Assembly: GCA_029856435.1 (NCBI GenBank)
Contig: JAHQXB010000079.1
Span: forward strand, 1-60,448
Length of the DNA stretch: 60,448 bases
Reading direction: 5' to 3'
DNA from: Candidatus Jordarchaeia archaeon
GTDB taxonomy: Archaea; Asgardarchaeota; Jordiarchaeia; Jordiarchaeales; Jordiarchaeaceae
Shown piece by piece: positions 25,822 through 35,204 of this stretch. The notes under the pieces were generated by a model that worked only from the letters and a program-made list of their open reading frames with translations, did no database searches and was not told where the DNA came from. Positions within the stretch are counted from its first letter, which is position 1, and each line of letters starts with the position of its first letter. The translations under genes and the position numbers were made by a program.

Positions 25822-27774
25822 ATGAGTAATGATGAAAAAAAAGCATCGGAACCAGCTATCGGTGTCTACGTTTGCGAGTGAGGTATTAACATAGGAAGCG
25901 TCGTTAACTGCAATGAAGTAGCAGAGTTCGCCAGCAAACTTCCTAACGTAAAAACAGCGAAAACTTATTCGTTTTTCTGTTCAGATCCTGGGCAGAACAT
26001 AATAAAGAAGGACATTGAGACTCTTGGAATAAATAGGGTGGTGGTAGCCTCCTGTACACCCAAGATACACGAGCCAACGTACAGAGCATTGCTGGAAAGC
26101 GCCGGACTCAGCCCCTACTATTTCCAGATGGTTAACCTTAGAGAACAATGCTCTTGGGTGCATTTCACCAATCCTGAGGAAGCTACAAGGAAAGCAAAAG
26201 ACTTAGTTGCTGCCGGGGTAGCTAGAGCACGACTACTCGAGGATGTTCCACAAAGGAAAGTGAAGGTTGAACCAGCTGTTATGGTGGTTGGAGGCGGAAT
26301 AGCCGGAATAAGCGCAGCACTAACTATCGCAAATCATGGAATCAAGGTGTACCTTGTTGAAAAAAAACCAACCATAGGAGGACTTGCAGCCCAGCTTGAT
26401 AGAACCTTTGCTACAGATGACTGTGCAATATGAATACTGGCTCCGAAAATGGTGGAAGTCGCCAAACACCCCAACGTAGAACTATACACCTACACTGATA
26501 TAAAAAGAGTTTCTGGAAGCCCAGGAGAGTTCTTAGTCACATTGCTTAAAAAGCCAAGATATGTAGATGAAGCCAAGTGTACGGGGTGCGGCTCGTGCGC
26601 CGAAAAGTGCCCTGTTGAAGTGCCCGACGAATTTAACTTTGGACTGGGAACCCGAAAGGCGATTTACATCCCCTTCTCACAGGCGGTGCCTAAAATTGCC
26701 TTAATATCCATGGAGGATTGTATTCAGTGCAAATCTTGCGAGCGCCAGTGTCTCGCAGGTGCAATCAAATATGACCAGCAACCCGAGGAAATTGAGATTA
26801 AAGTTGGAGCCATAATATTAGCTACGGGTACAGAAATATACGATGTGGCAAAGTATGGCGACTATGGATACGGCATCTATGAGGATGTAATCACTCAAGC
26901 TGAACTTGAGCGAATGCTAAGCCCCACCGGACCCACAGGGGGAAGAGTGCTCAGAGTTTCCAATAGAAAAACACCTAAACGTATAGTTATGATTCAATGC
27001 GTTGGATCTAGGGACATAAGAAGAAATCCTTACTGCTCAGAAGTCTGTTGCATGGTGGCCTTAAAAAACGCTAAGCTTATAAAACAGGAACACCCCGAAG
27101 CCGAGGTAACAATATGGTACATAGATATACGAGCAGTGGACGAAGGACACGAAGAATATTACAGAAGAGTTCGAGAGAGCGGAATTAATTTCATCAGAGG
27201 AATGCCAGAGGTTACGTTCAACGGTAAAAGCCTATTAGTTGAAGGCGAAAACACCCTTACCAACGAGTTTGTGAGTATGGAAACAGATCTTGTGGTTCTC
27301 TCCGCAGCCATAGTTCCTTCGCCATCAGGAATAGAAATCGGTCAGATGTTGGGTCTTGACAAGGCTCCTAGTGGCTTCCTCAAACCTCTACATACTGGGC
27401 TTAGTCCCCAAGAGACAAAAACCCGCGCAGTATTCGTCTGTGGTACAGCACAAGGTCCCAAGGATATATCCTACTCGGTATCCTCGGCAAGAGCCGCGGC
27501 CTCAGCTGCAACAGCTTGGTGCCTAGCTGGTGAGGCCAGCCTCGAATTAATAACACCAGTAATCATAGAGGAACTATGTGTTGGCTGTAAAAGATGTGAA
27601 AGAAACTGTCCTTTCGGAGCCATAAAGGTTGTCGACGGCGTTGCGAAAGTGGATGAGGCTAGTTGTAAAGGTTGTGGAATCTGTGTTGCTTCTTGTCCTG
27701 CGCATGCACTAGATCTTAGATATTACCGCGATAAACAGATAAGGGAAGAGGTAGCAGCGTTGGTGAAAACTTAG
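25822..27774 (+). CDS. hdrA: Heterodisulfide-reductase subunit A, selenoprotein with two in-frame TGA
   Basis: Read through two TGA codons, this frame gives a continuous 650-residue HdrA, the usual family length. Sec20 lies in VYVCE-U-GIN, where HdrA normally has a CxC-type motif; Sec204 lies in DDCAI-U-ILAPKM, where relatives have Cys, or Sec in some methanogens. Domains: an N-terminal region, an FAD-binding thioredoxin-reductase-like fold (VVGGGIAGISAALTI near 154), an inserted ferredoxin (CTGCGSCAEKCP, CIQCKSCERQC; about 250-320), the HdrA-specific CVGSRD then YCSEVCC cluster motif (393-410), and a C-terminal 2[4Fe-4S] domain (CVGCKRCERNCP, CKGCGICVASCP). HdrA is the flavin-based electron-bifurcating core that links ferredoxin and disulfide chemistry. 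AAAGGAGG precedes the ATG. vhuD and an FrhB fusion follow; hdrB and hdrC are absent here. Confidence 0.9.
25879..25881 (+). other. In-frame TGA, predicted selenocysteine 20 of HdrA
   Basis: TGA between GAG and GGT, in the reading V-Y-V-C-E-U-G-I-N. The frame is homologous to HdrA on both sides; a Cys normally occupies this place. No start codon with SD follows to restart translation. Confidence 0.8.
26431..26433 (+). other. In-frame TGA, predicted selenocysteine 204 of HdrA
   Basis: TGA in D-D-C-A-I-U-I-L-A-P-K-M. It coincides with the cysteine that is selenocysteine in some methanogen HdrA proteins and lies by the flavin-proximal cluster region. The HdrA frame continues without shift for another 446 codons. 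Confidence 0.85.
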
Positions 27775-27895
27775 AATCCTTATGCTTAATGATTCCACCA
27801 GCGAAAGCCTTGACTGGTGGATGAAGGCTCTGGTAAGCAACCAGGAGGATTAAAAAATTATAATTAAAAAAGGAGTGTGTGTTGGAGGAAAATAG
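27775..27895 (+). promoter_or_regulatory. hdrA-vhuD spacer with hairpin, possible SECIS
   Basis: The spacer folds TCCACCAG (27794-27801) against CTGGTGGA (27814-27821), eight pairs, capped by CGAAAGCCTTGA. The GAA on the 5' side and A on the 3' side recall the archaeal SECIS signature, but the short upper helix expected between them is not clear. A GGAGG for vhuD follows at 27884-27888. Confidence 0.4.
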
Positions 27896-28303
27896 TTGAC
27901 CTATCAAGTTGTTGTGTATGCATGCTGGAAATGAGGTTATGGAGTAGCCGACCTCACAGGTGTTTCCAGAGTAGCCTACGACCCTGCCCTTAGAATCGTG
28001 CGTTTAAGGTGTACGGGACGATTGGACAGTTCATTGTTGCTGGAGCCGATTTGTAATGGTGCAGACGGCGTTATGGTGGTGGGATGACACATAGGCGAGT
28101 GCGACTTTGAACAGGGAAACATTATGGCGGAGAAACATGTAAACTTTGTTAAAAGAATCCTTGAAAGACGGGGAATCGGAGGAGACCGAGTAAATATGTA
28201 TCATTGTTCAGCAGCTGAGGTCGGACGATTCAAAGAATCCGTTGAGGATATGATGAGTAAAATCAGAAAACTGGGGCCTAATCCCTTACGGCAAGAAAAA
28301 TAG
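27896..28303 (+). CDS. vhuD: MvhD/VhuD-type hydrogenase iron-sulfur subunit, selenoprotein with two in-frame TGA
   Basis: A 135-residue protein when two TGA codons are read as selenocysteine. The start is TTG at 27896, seven bases after GGAGG; an in-frame TAG directly precedes it. The family pattern is clear: VYACWK-U-GYGVADLTGVSRVAYDP (Sec13 in place of the Cys of the CxxC-like motif), IVRLRCTGRLD, GADGVMVVG-U-HIGECDFEQGN (Sec64 where relatives have CHPGDCHY), and MYHCSAAEVGRF. The subunit carries a [2Fe-2S] cluster and hands electrons to HdrA. It sits between hdrA and the FrhB fusion and ends at TAG 28301-28303. Without recoding, the gene would be three useless fragments. Confidence 0.9.
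27932..27934 (+). other. In-frame TGA, predicted selenocysteine 13 of VhuD
   Basis: TGA after tgc-tgg-aaa, in A-C-W-K-U-G-Y. Family members have Cys here as a cluster ligand. Confidence 0.85.
28085..28087 (+). other. In-frame TGA, predicted selenocysteine 64 of VhuD
   Basis: TGA in M-V-V-G-U-H-I-G-E-C-D. Relatives read AGCHPGDC at this place, so U replaces the first Cys of a cluster-binding pair. Confidence 0.85.
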
Positions 28304-28316
28304 TTACGGTTACTCT

Positions 28317-28354
28317 CTGGATGATCCTGAATCGGTAAATTTCTGAGGGTCCAG
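28317..28354 (+). promoter_or_regulatory. SECIS-like hairpin after vhuD
   Basis: Fourteen bases after the vhuD stop. The lower stem is CTGG-(bulge ATG)-ATCC against GGGT-CCAG. Above it come TGAAT on the 5' side and a single A on the 3' side, then a CGG/CTG helix (one G-U pair) and a seven-base loop TAAATTT. A GAA-versus-A internal loop below a short helix in the 3' untranslated region is the form known for archaeal SECIS elements. Fold drawn by eye. Confidence 0.65.
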
Positions 28355-28420
28355 GTGACATTCCTCGTAAGCGGAGGATTGAGTAACCTCTAGCAGATAT
28401 CTTGAGTGGAGGTCACATAG

Positions 28421-29854
28421 TTGGTAAATAAACTAGAGTTGGACTCTACGTTAGAGGCATTGAGGAGTTTTAGGGTTCGTGCCTTGTTCGGAGGAGAAAA
28501 AGAGATCATCGAGTGTGGAAAAATAACCCGTGAAGAATGGGAAAAACTCTTAGATTTCGTCGTGGACGATGAAACTGAGCGGAGGAAAGTTCTGTTAACT
28601 GTTAAGAAATTAGGCGGTGCATCGCTGCCTCAACTGGAAAAAGAGCTAGGAATGTCTAATTTTAGTATTCAAAAACATCTTCGGCTCTTGGAGTACGAAG
28701 GTTTAGTTGAGAAAAGCTCTGAGAGTGGTTCAGAAGCAGTTTATAAGCCTATTTTAAAAGAACCTTCAAGACCTCCTTTTGAAAAAATTAAATTTATTGT
28801 GGATGAGAAGCTCTGCGTGGACTGCGGAGCCTGCGTAAGTTATTGCCCAACAAACGCGATAACTATTGTTGATGAAGCCCCAGTAATTGATGAGGACAAA
28901 TGCATTGGGTGTGGTATTTGTAACAGTGTGGCTTGCCCCAGAACCTTCCTTTACCTAGATGTTTTGAGGCATTATGTAAAGGGTGAGCCTTGTAAACTTG
29001 ATCAGGAACCAATAGCGGGATATAAGAGCGCCCTTGCGGCGCAAACTATGAAGGAGGAAATAAGAAAAGTTTGCCAGGATGGAGGCATAGTAACATCAAT
29101 ATTGACCTATCTTTTTGATCACAACTTGATAGATGGGGCCCTAGTTGTTAAAAAGAGGGGGGAGAACTGGGCATCTGAGCCAGTAGTGGTGACTAATAAG
29201 GGGGAACTGCTTGAAACAGCGGGTACCAAGTATGTGGTTACTCCCACGCTGGTAGGATTGGAAAAGGCCAAAAAGATGGGGCTTAAAAAAATTGCTGTGG
29301 TGGGAACCCCTTGCCAGGTTCAAGCAGTAAGAAAGGCGCAGGTCTTTTCAAGTGCCTTCCAAGAAATTATGGGAAACATAGTGCTCATAATAGGGATATT
29401 CTGTATGGAAAATTTCTCCTACCAGAATATGAAAAAAATTGTTGAAGAATACTGCAAGGTGAATTTAGAAAACGCACGTAAAATGGACATCAACAAAGGC
29501 CAGTTCTCAGTACACATCAAAAGTGGCGAAAGATCTTCCGTACCAATCAAGGATATAACAGGTTTGGCAAGAACTGCTTGCCATGTGTGTCCAGACCTCA
29601 CCAATGAACTTGCAGACATCGCGGTGGGCTCTATAGGATCACCACCAAGTTGGTCAACTGTACTTATTAGAACAGAGAAAGGCGAAGAAATTTTCCAGAA
29701 AGCCCAGGAAGAGGGTTACTTGACCTCAAAACCGCTGGAGGAATCTGAAACGGGACTTCTACTGCTTATAAAACTTGCGAGAGGAAAAAGAAAGAGAAAC
29801 CTTGAGAAACTGGAATCCAAAAGAACAGAAGGAAAATATGCTACCCACTTCTAA
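28421..29854 (+). CDS. wHTH-ferredoxin-FrhB fusion protein
   Basis: 477 residues in three parts. Residues 1-110 form a winged-helix domain of ArsR-like look (ASLPQLEKELGMSNFSIQKH, LRLLEYEGLVEK). Residues 125-170 hold a 2[4Fe-4S] ferredoxin (CVDCGACVSYCP, CIGCGICNSVACP). Residues 180-470 are an F420-hydrogenase beta-subunit (FrhB/FdhB) domain: CQDGGIVTSILTY, VVGTPCQVQAVRKAQ, GIFCMENFSY and CHVCPDLTNELADIAVGS. FrhB proteins use FAD and [4Fe-4S] clusters to reduce F420 or related acceptors. TTG start with GGAGG nine bases upstream. As the last gene of the hdrA-vhuD operon it may connect HdrA to F420 or another acceptor. The DNA-binding domain on a redox enzyme is unusual. A paralog without the wHTH lies at 37532-39049. 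Confidence 0.85.
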   Translation: MVNKLELDSTLEALRSFRVRALFGGEKEIIECGKITREEWEKLLDFVVDDETERRKVLLTVKKLGGASLPQLEKELGMSNFSIQKHLRLLEYEGLVEKSSESGSEAVYKPILKEPSRPPFEKIKFIVDEKLCVDCGACVSYCPTNAITIVDEAPVIDEDKCIGCGICNSVACPRTFLYLDVLRHYVKGEPCKLDQEPIAGYKSALAAQTMKEEIRKVCQDGGIVTSILTYLFDHNLIDGALVVKKRGENWASEPVVVTNKGELLETAGTKYVVTPTLVGLEKAKKMGLKKIAVVGTPCQVQAVRKAQVFSSAFQEIMGNIVLIIGIFCMENFSYQNMKKIVEEYCKVNLENARKMDINKGQFSVHIKSGERSSVPIKDITGLARTACHVCPDLTNELADIAVGSIGSPPSWSTVLIRTEKGEEIFQKAQEEGYLTSKPLEESETGLLLLIKLARGKRKRNLEKLESKRTEGKYATHF

Positions 29855-29899: not shown

Positions 29900-31171
29900 C
29901 TACTTTGTTTCTATTTCAAATTCGCAGTAATCATTTCCCATAGCCATACACTTTGTTTCTTTGCAGATCCATTCTTTATTTGTAATCACTTGAAGGATGC
30001 CCACAAGAGCACCCCCAACAAAGGTGCAAACTGGCCTATCAGAATGGTTATAAGATAGTGCGATTGTAGAAATGCCCTTTATTTTTAATTTGCCAGTATC
30101 AACACTTCCCTCAATTGATAGTACCCTACCCCACCCCGAAACAGTGTTATATTTAAAGACTTCGAACAGGGGGTTTTTGTTATCTTTTAGCGACTCGGAT
30201 TTTATGAGAAGAGCCGCTCCACGCCCTACCTGCTTACCCAATTCGAGGAGGATTCTCTTGGATTCTTCTGGGCTGTGTTGTTTTTCTATGGCTTTAATAA
30301 ATAGTATGAGGGTCTGTATTGGGGTTATAATGTGGTTCCAGCCGAGTATTGAAACCTGACCCAATTCGTTGAACGACATACTCTCCTTCAATTTAGTGAA
30401 GGAGTCATAAAGTGGGAAAAGAGTGACGAACTTGTCGGGAGTAAAAAGGTAGGCGAATCTTTGATTCAAAATTTTGTGCGCCTCTCTTATCAAGGGAGTT
30501 CTTGAAATGTGTACGTATGATTGCCTTTTTTCTTCAACAGTTTCGAAACTAAAGTTTATGGCATAGTCAATAATATGAGTCAGGGTGCTAGTTACCTGTG
30601 GTTCATGAACATCGCGGTTTACTATCCCCAAGAATATTCCTCCATCGCCCTTAGCGTCGAGGGTTAATTTTCTGATCATTCTCAAAACAGTTTTTGAATC
30701 AAAGTCGATAATTGAGGAGCTTATATTGGCGTAAATTACAAGTATTGGAACATCCGGAAATTTTTGCTTAAGCCGAGATTTCGCCTCTTTTATTTCGTAA
30801 ATTATTCTCTTCGGCTCATTCGCTATCTCCCTAATATTCCTAACTTCATCATAAACTACTTTGGTTTTATTTTCGCTTGAAACCAAATCTAAAAAGTAGA
30901 AGCGGTCTTCCTGAATAGCCCTTTGAAAAATTGTATTCATTTTCTCTGAGAAATTCTTCTTAATTTGTCTATTAATTATTTCGAAGGGCAAATTTGTGTG
31001 GATCGTTATAACAGCTCCGCCTTTCCCCAAAAAATTTAAAGCTATTAGGGCCGCAAGTCTATTGGCATCGTTAAGTGTGAAGGAGTCCGACGTTACCAGA
31101 ATTGACAGGCCACTATATAGACGGCCTAATGTACTATCAATGTAATCAATTTCGGTTTTACGAATCTTCAA
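29900..31171 (-). CDS. KaiC-like (degenerate P-loop) plus V4R protein, paralog 1
   Basis: 423 residues, one of four tandem paralogs. The N-terminal 240 residues resemble a RecA/KaiC core: IDSTLGRLYSGLSIL, then VTSDSFTLNDANRLAALIALNFL where Walker A should be; the GxxGxGKT motif is lost (DSFTLNDA), so ATP binding in the normal way is unlikely. A middle VLVIYANISSSIIDFDSKTVLRM and GIVNRDVHE are conserved among the four. The C-terminal 130 residues are a V4R domain ending in GGALVGILQ and CKETKCMAMGNDYCEFE, which typically senses small molecules. TTG start with GGGAG upstream. It is last in the row and lies convergent to the FrhB fusion. Confidence 0.75.
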   Translation of the reverse strand: MKIRKTEIDYIDSTLGRLYSGLSILVTSDSFTLNDANRLAALIALNFLGKGGAVITIHTNLPFEIINRQIKKNFSEKMNTIFQRAIQEDRFYFLDLVSSENKTKVVYDEVRNIREIANEPKRIIYEIKEAKSRLKQKFPDVPILVIYANISSSIIDFDSKTVLRMIRKLTLDAKGDGGIFLGIVNRDVHEPQVTSTLTHIIDYAINFSFETVEEKRQSYVHISRTPLIREAHKILNQRFAYLFTPDKFVTLFPLYDSFTKLKESMSFNELGQVSILGWNHIITPIQTLILFIKAIEKQHSPEESKRILLELGKQVGRGAALLIKSESLKDNKNPLFEVFKYNTVSGWGRVLSIEGSVDTGKLKIKGISTIALSYNHSDRPVCTFVGGALVGILQVITNKEWICKETKCMAMGNDYCEFEIETK

Positions 31172-31265
31172 CTTTTCTCCCGACCTTCAAATTCTTAATG
31201 ATTATGTTAACGCTGTATAGCTTTCTCGGTATGCATTAGTGGTATATGTGTTGAATGCTGAATTT

Positions 31266-32540
31266 TTAAGGGGGCTGTTCAATTTTTGCCTCAAATACAC
31301 ACCATTCATCTCCCCTTGCTATGCAATGAGTTTCATTACAAATCCACTTCTTCCCTGTAACTCCTTCTAAAATGCCAGCCAAAATGCTTCCAACTAACAC
31401 GCAAACTTTGCGATTGGATTTGCCATAGTAGTAGGATAGCGTCATGAAATTGTAAATCTTAAATTCTCCAGATTCTGGGCTTCCCTCCCTCTTGATTAGT
31501 CTTCCCCATCCTCGAATCAAGAAGTAATTAAGCGCTTCCCTCAGCAAATAACTCCCTTCTAAACCATACCTTGATTTGAAGAGATTTGTGACCTCCAAAC
31601 CCAACTTTCTACCAAAACTCTCCATAAATTTTTCATATTCATTTATCCCCAAAGTCTTTTCAAGTTCTTTAAACAATAATAGGAATGTACTCAGGGGAGT
31701 GATCAAAAACTCCCTATCATGAATTAAAATTTTTCCCTCCTCATAGGAAATACTTCTCTTAAAATCGTCAAAAACCGGAGCCAAAGCGGGAAGCTTCACG
31801 AAAGTATCATTGTAAAAAATATAAGCGTACCTCTGGTAGATATTAGGTGAGCCTGGCTCCAAAACTGGAGACTTTAATACGCGAATGTAGGGCTGTTTTA
31901 AGCCTCCCCCTTCTTCGGATCTGAGTTCTACTACAAAATCAGCCAAGTGTATCAGCGTATTTAGTGTCAGAGCATCGTGAATGTCGCGATTAACTAGTCC
32001 CGTGATAATGTCTCCCCATCGCTTCACATTTGCAGTTAACTTTCTAAACATTTTTAACACAGTTTTTGAGCCAAAATCAAGAATAGACGAGCTAAAATTT
32101 TGGTACAAAATTATGAGAGGTGTCTCTGGCAAAACATTTTTAATTTTTTCTCTCAAGTGACTGACTTCAAACAGAATCCTGTCAGGGTCATTTTCAATTC
32201 TGAATACGCCCTTTAAACTACTCGAACCTTTGTGAAAAACATTGTTTGGCGTTGTATCGAGATAATAACATTTGCCTTCATTAAAGGCCTGCCAAATAAA
32301 ATTAATATCCTCTGGCGAAAACCTTGTTTGAATATCTTCATTTATCATAGAGGATGGCAAACTTGTTCCTAACACGATACCCCCTCCTCCTTGTTTAAGG
32401 AAATTTATGCCAACAAGAAGGTTGAGAGTTATAGCATCATTTAAAGTGAACGAATCGCATATAAACAAAATTGAAGTGCCGCCAAATAACGCGCCTAGGT
32501 GCGCATCTATGAATTTCACTAAGGTTTTTTCAATCCTCAA
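31266..32540 (-). CDS. KaiC-like (degenerate P-loop) plus V4R protein, paralog 2
   Basis: 424 residues, same architecture as its three neighbours. The N-terminal part has AHLGALFGGTSILFICDSFTLNDAITLNLLVG, again with DSFTLNDA in place of a P-loop. The middle has LIILYQNFSSSILDFGSKTVLKMFRKL and LVNRDIHD. The V4R part has GSILAGILEGVTGKKWICNETHC and ARGDEWCVFEA. All V4R cysteines (CxxxxC and final C) are present. Probable TTG start at 32540. It lies 49 bases after paralog 3, consistent with one transcript. Confidence 0.75.
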   Translation of the reverse strand: MRIEKTLVKFIDAHLGALFGGTSILFICDSFTLNDAITLNLLVGINFLKQGGGGIVLGTSLPSSMINEDIQTRFSPEDINFIWQAFNEGKCYYLDTTPNNVFHKGSSSLKGVFRIENDPDRILFEVSHLREKIKNVLPETPLIILYQNFSSSILDFGSKTVLKMFRKLTANVKRWGDIITGLVNRDIHDALTLNTLIHLADFVVELRSEEGGGLKQPYIRVLKSPVLEPGSPNIYQRYAYIFYNDTFVKLPALAPVFDDFKRSISYEEGKILIHDREFLITPLSTFLLLFKELEKTLGINEYEKFMESFGRKLGLEVTNLFKSRYGLEGSYLLREALNYFLIRGWGRLIKREGSPESGEFKIYNFMTLSYYYGKSNRKVCVLVGSILAGILEGVTGKKWICNETHCIARGDEWCVFEAKIEQPP

Positions 32541-32589
32541 ACCTTATCCCTCATTTTATAACTTTTAACCTCTTGAAAGACGTATGGTT

Positions 32590-33867
32590 TTAAGCCACAA
32601 GTTTTAATTCGAATTTACACCTACTATTTCCCTTGGCGATACACTCTTTTTCATCGCAAGTCCAGTTCCGTAGGGAGATTTCTTCTAAGATTCCCTGTAG
32701 AACGCCACCTTCAATTATACAGACGGGATAATCAGATTTTCCATAATGGGCAGCAAAGTTAGAATAGCCTTCAACTATTATGCGTCCGGATTTAAGGCTT
32801 CCTTCGTAAATGTTAAATTTGCCCCAACCAGTAATTGAGAGGTGGTTTATTGCAGCTTTAAAAAGTTCTTTGTCAGTTAGCTTGAATCGGGAAGACAGGA
32901 TCTTTAAAATATGTGACCCTATAAGCCTGCCTACATTTTTTACTATTTTTGTATATTCGCTTCTTCCCAGTTTTTTCTCAATTTCTTTTAGGAGAATTGT
33001 GAAGGTGGGCATCTCTGCAATAATGTAATTTGTGTCGTAGGCTATTACTTCCCCTCTTTCAAGATAGGAGATGCTTGCCTTCAACTCTTCAAAGGATGTA
33101 GGAATAGTAGGGAGAATGTAAAAAGTGTCCTCGAAAAGTTCATATGTGAATTTTTTGTATAATATTTTCTTATTATCCACGGATAGGGGTGTTCTAGTTA
33201 CAGACACGTAGGGTTGCTTTTTGCCTTCGATAAGATCTACCCCAAATTCAAGTATATAATCAGCTAAGTGGGCGAGAGAATTAGCCACGCTCAGTTCTTG
33301 CATATCCCGATTAAAGATTCCCAGAAACAAATCACCATGTATTTTAACGTCTAATATCAATTTTCTTATCATACTTAAAACGACTCCTGGTTCAAAATCT
33401 AAAATCAGGTAGCTGATATTTGATTGCAAAATGAGAACTGGGGCATCTGAAAAATTCTTAATTTTATTTCTTGCATTTAGAATTTCATATAAAATTCTGT
33501 TGAGGTCGTTTACAACAGGCGTAACATACTCTGAATGATTAAGAGTAAAGTTACTAATATTATCCTCCAGCACAATGTTAATATAGTGTAATCTACCCTC
33601 ATTTGTCGCCTCTTGTAGAACGCGTCTTACTTCCGGAGAGCTGAAATATAATACATCTTTTATTGCCCAAGAGAAGGGCAAGTTTTCATAGACAAAAACG
33701 CAACCTCCACCATTTTTCAAAATATTTAACGCCACCAGGCTTGCCAATTTTTGAGCATCATTTGCAGTGTTTGAATCCGCTGAGAACAATATTGGAAAAC
33801 CCTGGTAAAGAACGCCCAGAGACTGATCTAGAAACTCTATTCCAATTTTTTTAATTTTCAAATCCAC
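32590..33867 (-). CDS. KaiC-like (degenerate P-loop) plus V4R protein, paralog 3
   Basis: 425 residues. N-terminus: QSLGVLYQGFPILFSADSNTANDAQKLASLVALN, with DSNTANDA replacing Walker A. Middle: VLILQSNISYLILDFEPGVVLSMIRKL and IFNRDMQE. V4R: GGVLQGILEEISLRNWTCDEKEC and AKGNSRCKFEL. The GTG start follows AAGGTGGG closely. It lies 53 bases after paralog 4. The four copies are divergent in sequence but collinear, so the duplications are old and each has been kept under selection. Confidence 0.75.
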   Translation of the reverse strand: MDLKIKKIGIEFLDQSLGVLYQGFPILFSADSNTANDAQKLASLVALNILKNGGGCVFVYENLPFSWAIKDVLYFSSPEVRRVLQEATNEGRLHYINIVLEDNISNFTLNHSEYVTPVVNDLNRILYEILNARNKIKNFSDAPVLILQSNISYLILDFEPGVVLSMIRKLILDVKIHGDLFLGIFNRDMQELSVANSLAHLADYILEFGVDLIEGKKQPYVSVTRTPLSVDNKKILYKKFTYELFEDTFYILPTIPTSFEELKASISYLERGEVIAYDTNYIIAEMPTFTILLKEIEKKLGRSEYTKIVKNVGRLIGSHILKILSSRFKLTDKELFKAAINHLSITGWGKFNIYEGSLKSGRIIVEGYSNFAAHYGKSDYPVCIIEGGVLQGILEEISLRNWTCDEKECIAKGNSRCKFELKLVA

Positions 33868-33920
33868 CCCACCTTAAAGACGAAAAATTGAGAATCTATA
33901 AAAATTTATTCTTGCCTAAA

Positions 33921-35204
33921 TCATATTTGGGTCAATTCAAATTCACAATAATTATCGCCCATAGCAATGCACCTTATCTCTTTACTTGTCCACTTTTTTC
34001 CGGTAATTTCTTGAACTGCTCCCAGTAAACTGCCTTCGATTAATAAGTCCACAGGCTTGTCTGATTTGCCCCACAATTCAGCTAAAGAGGAGTGAACTCT
34101 GACTTTTAGAGTACCGGATTCTAAGCTTCCCTCAATGTTTAGCACTCTGCCGTAGCCTCTAGCACCGACATACATTAGAGTTGAATGCAAAAGGCGATCC
34201 TCTTTAAGATTAAACTCTGATTCGACAATTCTAACGCTCTTAGCCCCGAAATCTTTACCAAGCTCCATAACAATGTTTCTATAGCCATCATAGTCTATAC
34301 TTTTTTCAAAATTTAATAGAAGACTCGCTAGAAGTTGGGTGGGAAGCACGAGGTGTTTCGTTCCCAGTATTGAAATTTCACCATTTTGATAAAAAACTTG
34401 TCCGTCTTCCAACTCGTCTAGATAGAAAGATGCTGGTGAAAAGGTTTCAAACTTGTTTCCAGAAATGTGGTAAGCAATTTTTTTGTGCAAAAGCTTCCTA
34501 GCAAATCCAACTAAGGGTGTCTTAGACACTTGCAAATAGGGACGAGGTAAGTCTTCTTTAAACTCTAATCCAAACTCCATAGTATAGTTTGAAAAATGTT
34601 TCAGAGTACTTGTTATTTCCAGCTCATGAATATCCCTGTTTAACACACCAATGAAAATACCCCCGTTCTGCTTTATGTTTGATATCAATTTTTTAAACAT
34701 ATTTAAGGCAGCCTTGGAATCGAAATCAACCATAGTAGAGCTAATATTATGATACAAGAGAATAACTGGGCTTTCGGGAAAACTTGCTCTCATTTTTTCC
34801 ATCGCGCGATTAGCTTCATATAATATTCTATCTATATCATTCCTAACAAGTACCAGCCCCACCAAACCCTCAAAATTTTCACCAGAAGGAAATTTGTCAG
34901 ACACAAGATCCAAATACGTGAAACGCCCCTCATCCATCGCCTTTGTTAAAGCATGGTACTTATCAGGCAGAAACATATGCTTAAATTTTTTCGCGGCCAA
35001 ACTGTGGGGCTCATCCGTTTGAACAGCAACACAGGACAATCCCTGATCCATTAGATTAAAGGCCGCCAACATGCTGAGTAGCAAGGCATCATTTAACGTA
35101 GCAGAGTCAGCTATGAAGAGTAATACCTGACCTCCAGAAACGCCTCCCAGAGAAAAGTCTACAACCGGAATCCTAGTTTCAAACTCCAAAACCCAATCCC
35201 TCAA
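33921..35204 (-). CDS. KaiC-like (degenerate P-loop) plus V4R protein, paralog 4
   Basis: 427 residues, first of the four in transcription order. N-terminus: FSLGGVSGGQVLLFIADSATLNDALLLSML; the SLGGVSGGQVLL part is the closest of the four to a KaiC start (LGGGxxxGS), but Walker A is again DSATLNDA. Middle: VILLYHNISSTMVDFDSKAALNMFKKL and VLNRDIHE. V4R: EGSLLGAVQEITGKKWTSKEIRC and AMGDNYCEFE; here the first of the three V4R cysteines is Ser (WTSKE), unlike the other copies. It starts with TTG. A 160-base gap separates it from the upstream beta-sandwich gene. Confidence 0.75.
   Translation of the reverse strand: MRDWVLEFETRIPVVDFSLGGVSGGQVLLFIADSATLNDALLLSMLAAFNLMDQGLSCVAVQTDEPHSLAAKKFKHMFLPDKYHALTKAMDEGRFTYLDLVSDKFPSGENFEGLVGLVLVRNDIDRILYEANRAMEKMRASFPESPVILLYHNISSTMVDFDSKAALNMFKKLISNIKQNGGIFIGVLNRDIHELEITSTLKHFSNYTMEFGLEFKEDLPRPYLQVSKTPLVGFARKLLHKKIAYHISGNKFETFSPASFYLDELEDGQVFYQNGEISILGTKHLVLPTQLLASLLLNFEKSIDYDGYRNIVMELGKDFGAKSVRIVESEFNLKEDRLLHSTLMYVGARGYGRVLNIEGSLESGTLKVRVHSSLAELWGKSDKPVDLLIEGSLLGAVQEITGKKWTSKEIRCIAMGDNYCEFELTQI

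Follow-up and report, generated by a model that had tools for sequence, protein, structure and literature searches.

Selenocysteine (Sec) has long been known in the VhuD and HdrA proteins of Methanococcus, and multiple Sec residues reportedly occur in three of the five Lokiarchaeal selenoprotein families (abstract of Mariotti 2016). Among proteins of known structure, the Methanococcales two-Sec VhuD/MvhD (9SFI/9T1S chain K) is homologous over its full length to the VhuD described here and has a non-standard residue in both the CxxU and the UxxxxC motifs, and the corresponding Methanococcales-type HdrA (9SFI_A) carries the same Sec (modelled as X) within DDCAx-U-ILAPKM. VhuD with two Sec residues is listed in a 2026 review (PMC13188914); another review quotes 70-1,500 nt for the distance between Sec codon and SECIS in archaea, and describes the Lokiarchaeal SECIS as having one apical loop, with a single SECIS found per gene. 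An hdrA-frhD selenoprotein cluster has been described in Asgard archaea, in which almost all pairs are stated to share one SECIS (PMC11227280).

The locus discussed here lies in a window of 60,448 nt from a Candidatus Jordarchaeia archaeon (contig JAHQXB010000079.1 of GCA_029856435.1). As far as the main-text passages of the reports on the Asgard HdrA/FrhD cluster go (Huang 2024, PMC11227280; Sun 2021, PMC9723677), the two have in common the adjacent hdrA and vhuD genes, UGA codons in both of them, the AUGA/GA core of the SECIS and the GUAAA-like apical adenines that are found in the vhuD element; they differ in that each gene appears here to have a SECIS of its own, with a companion hairpin and an outer helix that are absent from those passages. 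With respect to the Methanococcales VhuD, the differences are the Asgard origin of the protein, the Asgard-type SECIS, the FrhB-like neighbour and a score below the NCBI cut-off for VhuD, while the Asgard HdrA has one Sec more than 9SFI_A, in the CxU motif near the N-terminus, where 9SFI_A has Cys; some relatives have others at positions 53, 78, 303 and 306. In Asgard archaea as in Methanococcales, the pairing of a two-Sec VhuD with an HdrA that contains Sec has been described before, and the present vhuD is one more verified member of a known selenoprotein family that is missed by gene callers, in which we infer Sec insertion. Given the published statements on shared or single SECIS elements and on one apical loop, what would be added here, with uncertain priority, is the companion hairpin and, for Jordarchaeia, the separate SECIS of each gene. 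The account that best fits the data is that of an Asgard hdrA-vhuD(mvhD)-frhB-like unit, in which UGA would specify Sec at two sites of HdrA and two of VhuD, each gene would be served by its own SECIS and the products would act as an Fe-S relay; we assign to it a probability of about 0.93.

The vhuD gene

The vhuD/mvhD gene (27896..28303, plus strand) encodes 135 residues with TGA read as Sec. A single frame holds TTG at 27896, TGA at 27932 (codon 13; 27932..27934, C-W-K-U), TGA at 28085 (codon 64; 28085..28087, U-H-I-G-E-C) and TAG at 28301, with an in-frame TAG directly 5' of the TTG and a likely ribosome-binding site, GGAGG, at 27884..27888 on the same strand. In the standard code the frame falls into pieces of 12, 50 and 71 codons and, as pointed out in the first-pass annotation, which had put the longest at about 70 codons, is easily missed by gene callers. 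The recoded product reads LTYQVVVYACWKUGYGVADL...VVGUHIGECDF... and is covered end to end by the Pfam FlpD family (PF02662, 1-123/123, 137 bits against a cut-off of 22.3, E 4e-40). The NCBIfam VhuD model NF045873 gives 157.7 bits, below its strict cut-off of 215, so that the protein belongs to the MvhD/FlpD family without being a VhuD in NCBI's strict sense. Solved methanogen MvhD/VhuD chains are matched with E values of 4e-36 to 7e-28, and the closest of them, 9SFI chain K, has X exactly at the two TGA positions, which, from the family, is taken as selenocysteine. The CxxC and CxxxxC pairs are both present when Sec is counted as Cys, and in the alignments with 5ODC and 9SFI they are matched as C10-U13 and U64-C69. 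The earlier proposal that 27896-28303 encodes a full MvhD-family protein if both TGAs are read through is thus borne out by the profile search of the recoded translation and by the comparison with the methanogen and Asgard proteins; its description of the TGAs as replacing cluster-ligand cysteines stands for the Cys positions of the two motifs, the role of these as cluster ligands being assigned by homology.

Purifying selection acts on the vhuD frame both before and after each TGA. Among five congeners, pN/pS is 0.17 in the segment that precedes the first TGA, 0.12 in the segment between the TGAs and 0.125 in the one that follows the second, to be compared with 0.9-3.2 in the two other frames. 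In 53 Asgard vhuD sequences all the in-frame TGAs (97/97) sit in columns 13 and 64, and these columns hold only TGA or Cys, except that L082 has a G next to an insertion that is misaligned. At the second site TGA is found in four congeners and TGC in the sister species (G003). Since a TGA in VhuD was the reason for choosing most of these loci, the TGA frequencies are biased and uninformative; the restriction of TGA to Cys columns is free of this bias and is informative. Conservation around both TGAs is strong and the related strains lack pseudogene features, so that neither of the findings named in the first-pass annotation as refuting it is seen. Computation shows that the vhuD frame is real, selected and exchangeable between Sec and Cys. 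As a separate observation, six loci (L009, L010, L012, L014, L015 and L018) have an additional in-frame TGA near the C-terminus of vhuD, which in some of them is apparently the AUGA of the SECIS core; there, a stop or Sec codon would overlap an RNA motif.

The hdrA gene and the selenium content of the pair

Upstream of vhuD, hdrA (25822..27774, plus strand) encodes 650 residues with TGA read as Sec, and scores 843 bits with the NCBIfam HdrA2 model and E 1e-224 with 9SFI_A. Its two in-frame UGA codons correspond to Sec20 (25879..25881, plus strand) in the N-terminal Cys motif (VCE-U-G), where 40 sequences have TGA and 5 have Cys and where 9SFI_A has Cys, and to Sec204 (26431..26433, plus strand) in DDCAI-U-ILAPKM, where TGA is found in all the HdrA sequences compared (47/47) and 9SFI_A has X. 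All 108 TGAs of the 47 hdrA sequences fall in six Cys columns (20, 53, 78, 204, 303 and 306), and within the Cys motif at the N-terminus Sec may occupy as many as three positions (20, 53, 78). HdrA proteins of other Asgard families (L061-L104, e.g. L070) have up to five in-frame TGAs, again in Cys columns only.

The four recoded codons that had been proposed for the hdrA-vhuD pair (TGA at 25879, 26431, 27932 and 28085) are confirmed as such. The additional statement that the pair is unusually rich in selenium is not supported: two codons in each gene is the commonest pattern, VhuD normally has two, and some relatives reach five plus two. Where the N-terminus of HdrA is present, the number of TGAs is one in 4/45 sequences, two in 27/45, three in 9/45, four in 4/45 and five in 1/45. 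In a second copy found in the same genome (G000:C99, L083), as in G001:C13 (L088), HdrA and VhuD are fused and encoded by one frame that has four TGA codons; each of these fusions has one three-way-junction SECIS at its end.

Predicted SECIS elements

Each gene of the Jordarchaeia hdrA-vhuD pair is followed by its own predicted SECIS, and both predicted elements have a common plan, namely a eukaryote-like hairpin made of an AUGA...GA core, an upper stem and an A-rich apical loop, a 3' companion hairpin and an outer helix closing both hairpins. The hdrA element (27774..27852, plus strand) is formed by the outer helix (27776-27781/27845-27850), a lower stem (27784-27787/27825-27828), the core (AUGA 27789-27792 with GA 27823-27824), the upper stem (27794-27801/27814-27821) and the companion hairpin (27830-27834/27840-27844, loop AAGCA), and its minimum-free-energy fold is exactly this three-way junction (z −3.4). 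Sec20 of HdrA lies approximately 1.9 kb from this element, beyond the range quoted for archaea. The vhuD element (28306..28390, plus strand) comprises the outer helix (28308-28314/28382-28388), the core (AUGA 28321-28324 with GA 28357-28358), the upper stem (28325-28333/28348-28356, with two mismatches here and none in the closest sister species), the apical AAA (28337-28339) and the companion hairpin (28361-28366/28374-28379, loop GUAAGCG). In the window's genome it folds less cleanly (z −1.9), the free fold preferring an alternative upper part, and in the second family of the order both hairpins are kept with no clear outer helix. The Asgard eSECIS-like type I is defined by a GA_[G/A]A core, an upper stem of 7-15 bp with at most two mismatches and an apical loop of 8-20 nt with an unpaired A; both elements fit it, that of hdrA with AUGA/GA, 8 bp plus U-U and a 12-nt loop with AAA, and that of vhuD with AUGA/GA, nine positions with two mismatches and a 14-nt loop with AAA. 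A fold with the same three parts, although with other pairs in the outer helix, is seen for selD elements, both in this genome and in other families; for these, the three-way junction rests on sequence and folding, since the models R1 and R3 described below score them weakly or not at all.

Three models of the element were used. R1, which was derived from five vhuD elements found in the genus, matches beyond the genus only behind vhuD of other families, except for one antisense match at E 4.6, and gives one match over the whole genome to which the window belongs. It does not find the hdrA elements, probably because of differing stem spacings, so that the latter had to be modelled on their own, with five of them as the training set of R2. 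In 338 kb, R2 recovers the four hdrA elements of the other family of the order, which are outside that set, with E values between 1e-9 and 2e-4, and has no further match below E 0.4. R3 was trained on the R1 matches and finds the element at 49/53 Asgard vhuD loci, 25 of the 49 being outside its training set, always on the coding strand and between −16 and +58 nt relative to the final matched base of vhuD; in eight whole genomes, 15/18 matches are vhuD sites and three are weak extras. One extra R3 match (E 0.001), at G001:C14:37479-37561 (L163), lies between polyferredoxin-like and FrhB-like frames and may mark a further selenoprotein. Covariation is 0.586 against 0.177 in shuffled alignments for the vhuD element, and 0.533 against 0.263 for that of hdrA, in both cases above shuffles and slid controls; these two alignments had been adjusted to the model and are biased in its favour, while unfitted alignments limited to the genus agree with the model but vary little. 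Rfam at gathering thresholds detects no RNA family in the window.

It is somewhat more likely than not that Asgard SECIS elements are three-way junctions rather than single eukaryote-like hairpins, with an AUGA/GA hairpin, a conserved 3' companion hairpin (loop approximately [U/A]AGC[G/A] in Jordarchaeia hdrA and vhuD, GCAA/GCGA-like in selD) and an outer helix around both, one such element belonging to each of hdrA and vhuD in Jordarchaeia. The companion hairpin would then be a candidate binding site of the missing archaeal SECIS-binding factor.

Selenocysteine machinery and the selD insertion

The window's genome (3.54 Mb in 181 contigs, 98% complete) encodes SecS, PSTK (whose match falls below the curated cut-off) and an EFSec that, among solved proteins, comes closest to M. 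maripaludis SelB (4AC9, 3.5e-118), all three on one contig, and a selD with TGA at the GUSCK motif. EFSec was found by reading contig C117; the eukaryotic SelB Pfam model gave no match anywhere, controls included. A search of the same genome with RF01852 and two patterns found no tRNA-Sec and returned only other tRNAs or chance-level matches. This could reflect an assembly gap or an intron, and the T-arm intron of the Lokiarchaeal tRNA-Sec (PMC9499178) points to one way in which a plain model could overlook the gene. The Sec machinery and tRNA-Sec have been published for Jordarchaeia and Freyarchaeia.

An insertion of 30-34 nt is present between the Tyr and Ala codons of NDVYA in all seven Jordarchaeia selD genes examined (that of this genome being at G000:C35, locus L105, minus strand, about 1071-2111, and the others L109-L112, L123 and L124), and is absent from the other Asgard families compared. 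It creates an in-frame TAA or a frameshift. In the seven sequences it folds into a stem of 8-9 bp with 100% standard pairs and strong covariation, flanked by the bulges GUGU-AY^A and GCAY-AA^G; a cut after the second base of each three-base bulge would restore the reading frame. No clear outer exon helix surrounds the insertion, which is probably an mRNA intron with the archaeal bulge-helix-bulge geometry. In the literature, introns of this type were found for cbf5 and none for selD.

Gene neighbourhood

The gene that follows vhuD (28421..29854, plus strand) encodes an FrhB-like protein with an HTH-like N-terminus (weak TrmB/HTH match of the TrmB/ArsR type at residues 54-111), a 2[4Fe-4S] domain (Fer4) and an F420 beta-subunit domain (PF04432/PF04422), and matches 9R51_B with E 7e-72. 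Four tandem paralogues of approximately 424 residues with a C-terminal V4R domain (29900-35204, minus strand) adjoin the hdrA-vhuD-frhB unit; the last of the four ends at a TGA where the other copies end with other stops.

Alternative explanations

That the two TGAs of vhuD are nonsense mutations or sequencing mistakes is suggested by the three short pieces obtained with the standard code, and by the fact that the contigs come from metagenome-assembled genomes. However, the same TGAs are found in many independent genomes of several families, pN/pS remains at approximately 0.12 downstream of both TGAs and there are no frameshifts; on the basis of the TGAs of the relatives and of the selection downstream, a pseudogene or an assembly error was rejected, its probability being negligible. 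A genome-wide reassignment of UGA, for example to Trp or Cys, would give open frames too, but it is equally hard to credit: TGA terminates ordinary genes, and the fourth V4R paralogue led to its rejection; the genome also encodes the proteins of the archaeal Sec machinery, and the TGA genes are followed by a dedicated 3' element. Less remote, though still unlikely, is that one SECIS is shared by hdrA and vhuD, the intergenic element being a decaying duplicate. This would agree with the published generalization for most Asgard hdrA-frhD pairs, and with what is seen both in further Asgard families and in the second copies that this genus has, where the hdrA-vhuD gap is approximately 20-70 nt or the genes are fused, and where there is one element only, located behind vhuD. 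Against it, the hdrA element is kept in both families of the order with compensatory changes in all four helices, and in the window it folds better than the vhuD element.

The most probable of the alternatives concerns function, namely that HdrA-VhuD acts in a classical HdrABC-MvhAGD hydrogenase complex instead of with the FrhB-like neighbour. The closest solved homologues belong to such complexes and the papers on Asgard archaea infer HdrABC-MvhADG, so that this reading is a serious contender, if somewhat short of an even chance. On the other side, a Pfam scan of the window's larger frames shows no hdrB, hdrC, mvhA or mvhG, although these may be located elsewhere in the genome, the FrhB-like protein is encoded by the very next gene, and in several relatives a matching ferredoxin segment is found at a similar offset. 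An F420-linked HdrA-VhuD-FrhB module is favoured over the classical hydrogenase complex, with moderate confidence.

Proposed mechanism

The SECIS behind each gene would recruit EFSec-GTP-Sec-tRNA to the ribosome, and both UGAs of that gene would as a consequence be read as Sec. Several observations speak against this account: the search of the genome gave no tRNA-Sec, the upper stem of its vhuD element has two mismatches and an alternative free fold, and Sec20 of HdrA is farther from its SECIS than the quoted archaeal range. In VhuD, Sec13 and Sec64 would each replace one Cys of the pairs (C10-x2-U13 and U64-x4-C69) holding the [2Fe-2S] cluster, the ligands of which we take to be C10, residue 13, residue 64 and C69 from homology and general knowledge of MvhD. 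VhuD presumably passes electrons to HdrA, as assumed from what is generally known of MvhD/HdrA complexes, and Sec at positions 13 and 64 may tune the electron relay between the partner of VhuD and the HdrA flavin. Such partner would most likely be the adjacent F420-type FrhB-like protein, which is preferred because the larger window frames that were scanned include neither hydrogenase nor HdrBC genes.

Concluding remarks

If selD needs splicing, as it seems, the use of selenium in this order would be linked to the enzymes that splice tRNA. Where two adjacent genes have a SECIS each, one can ask whether a SECIS serves one gene or the whole transcript. For the question of how archaea recognize the SECIS without SBP2, the covarying companion hairpin gives a concrete RNA target.
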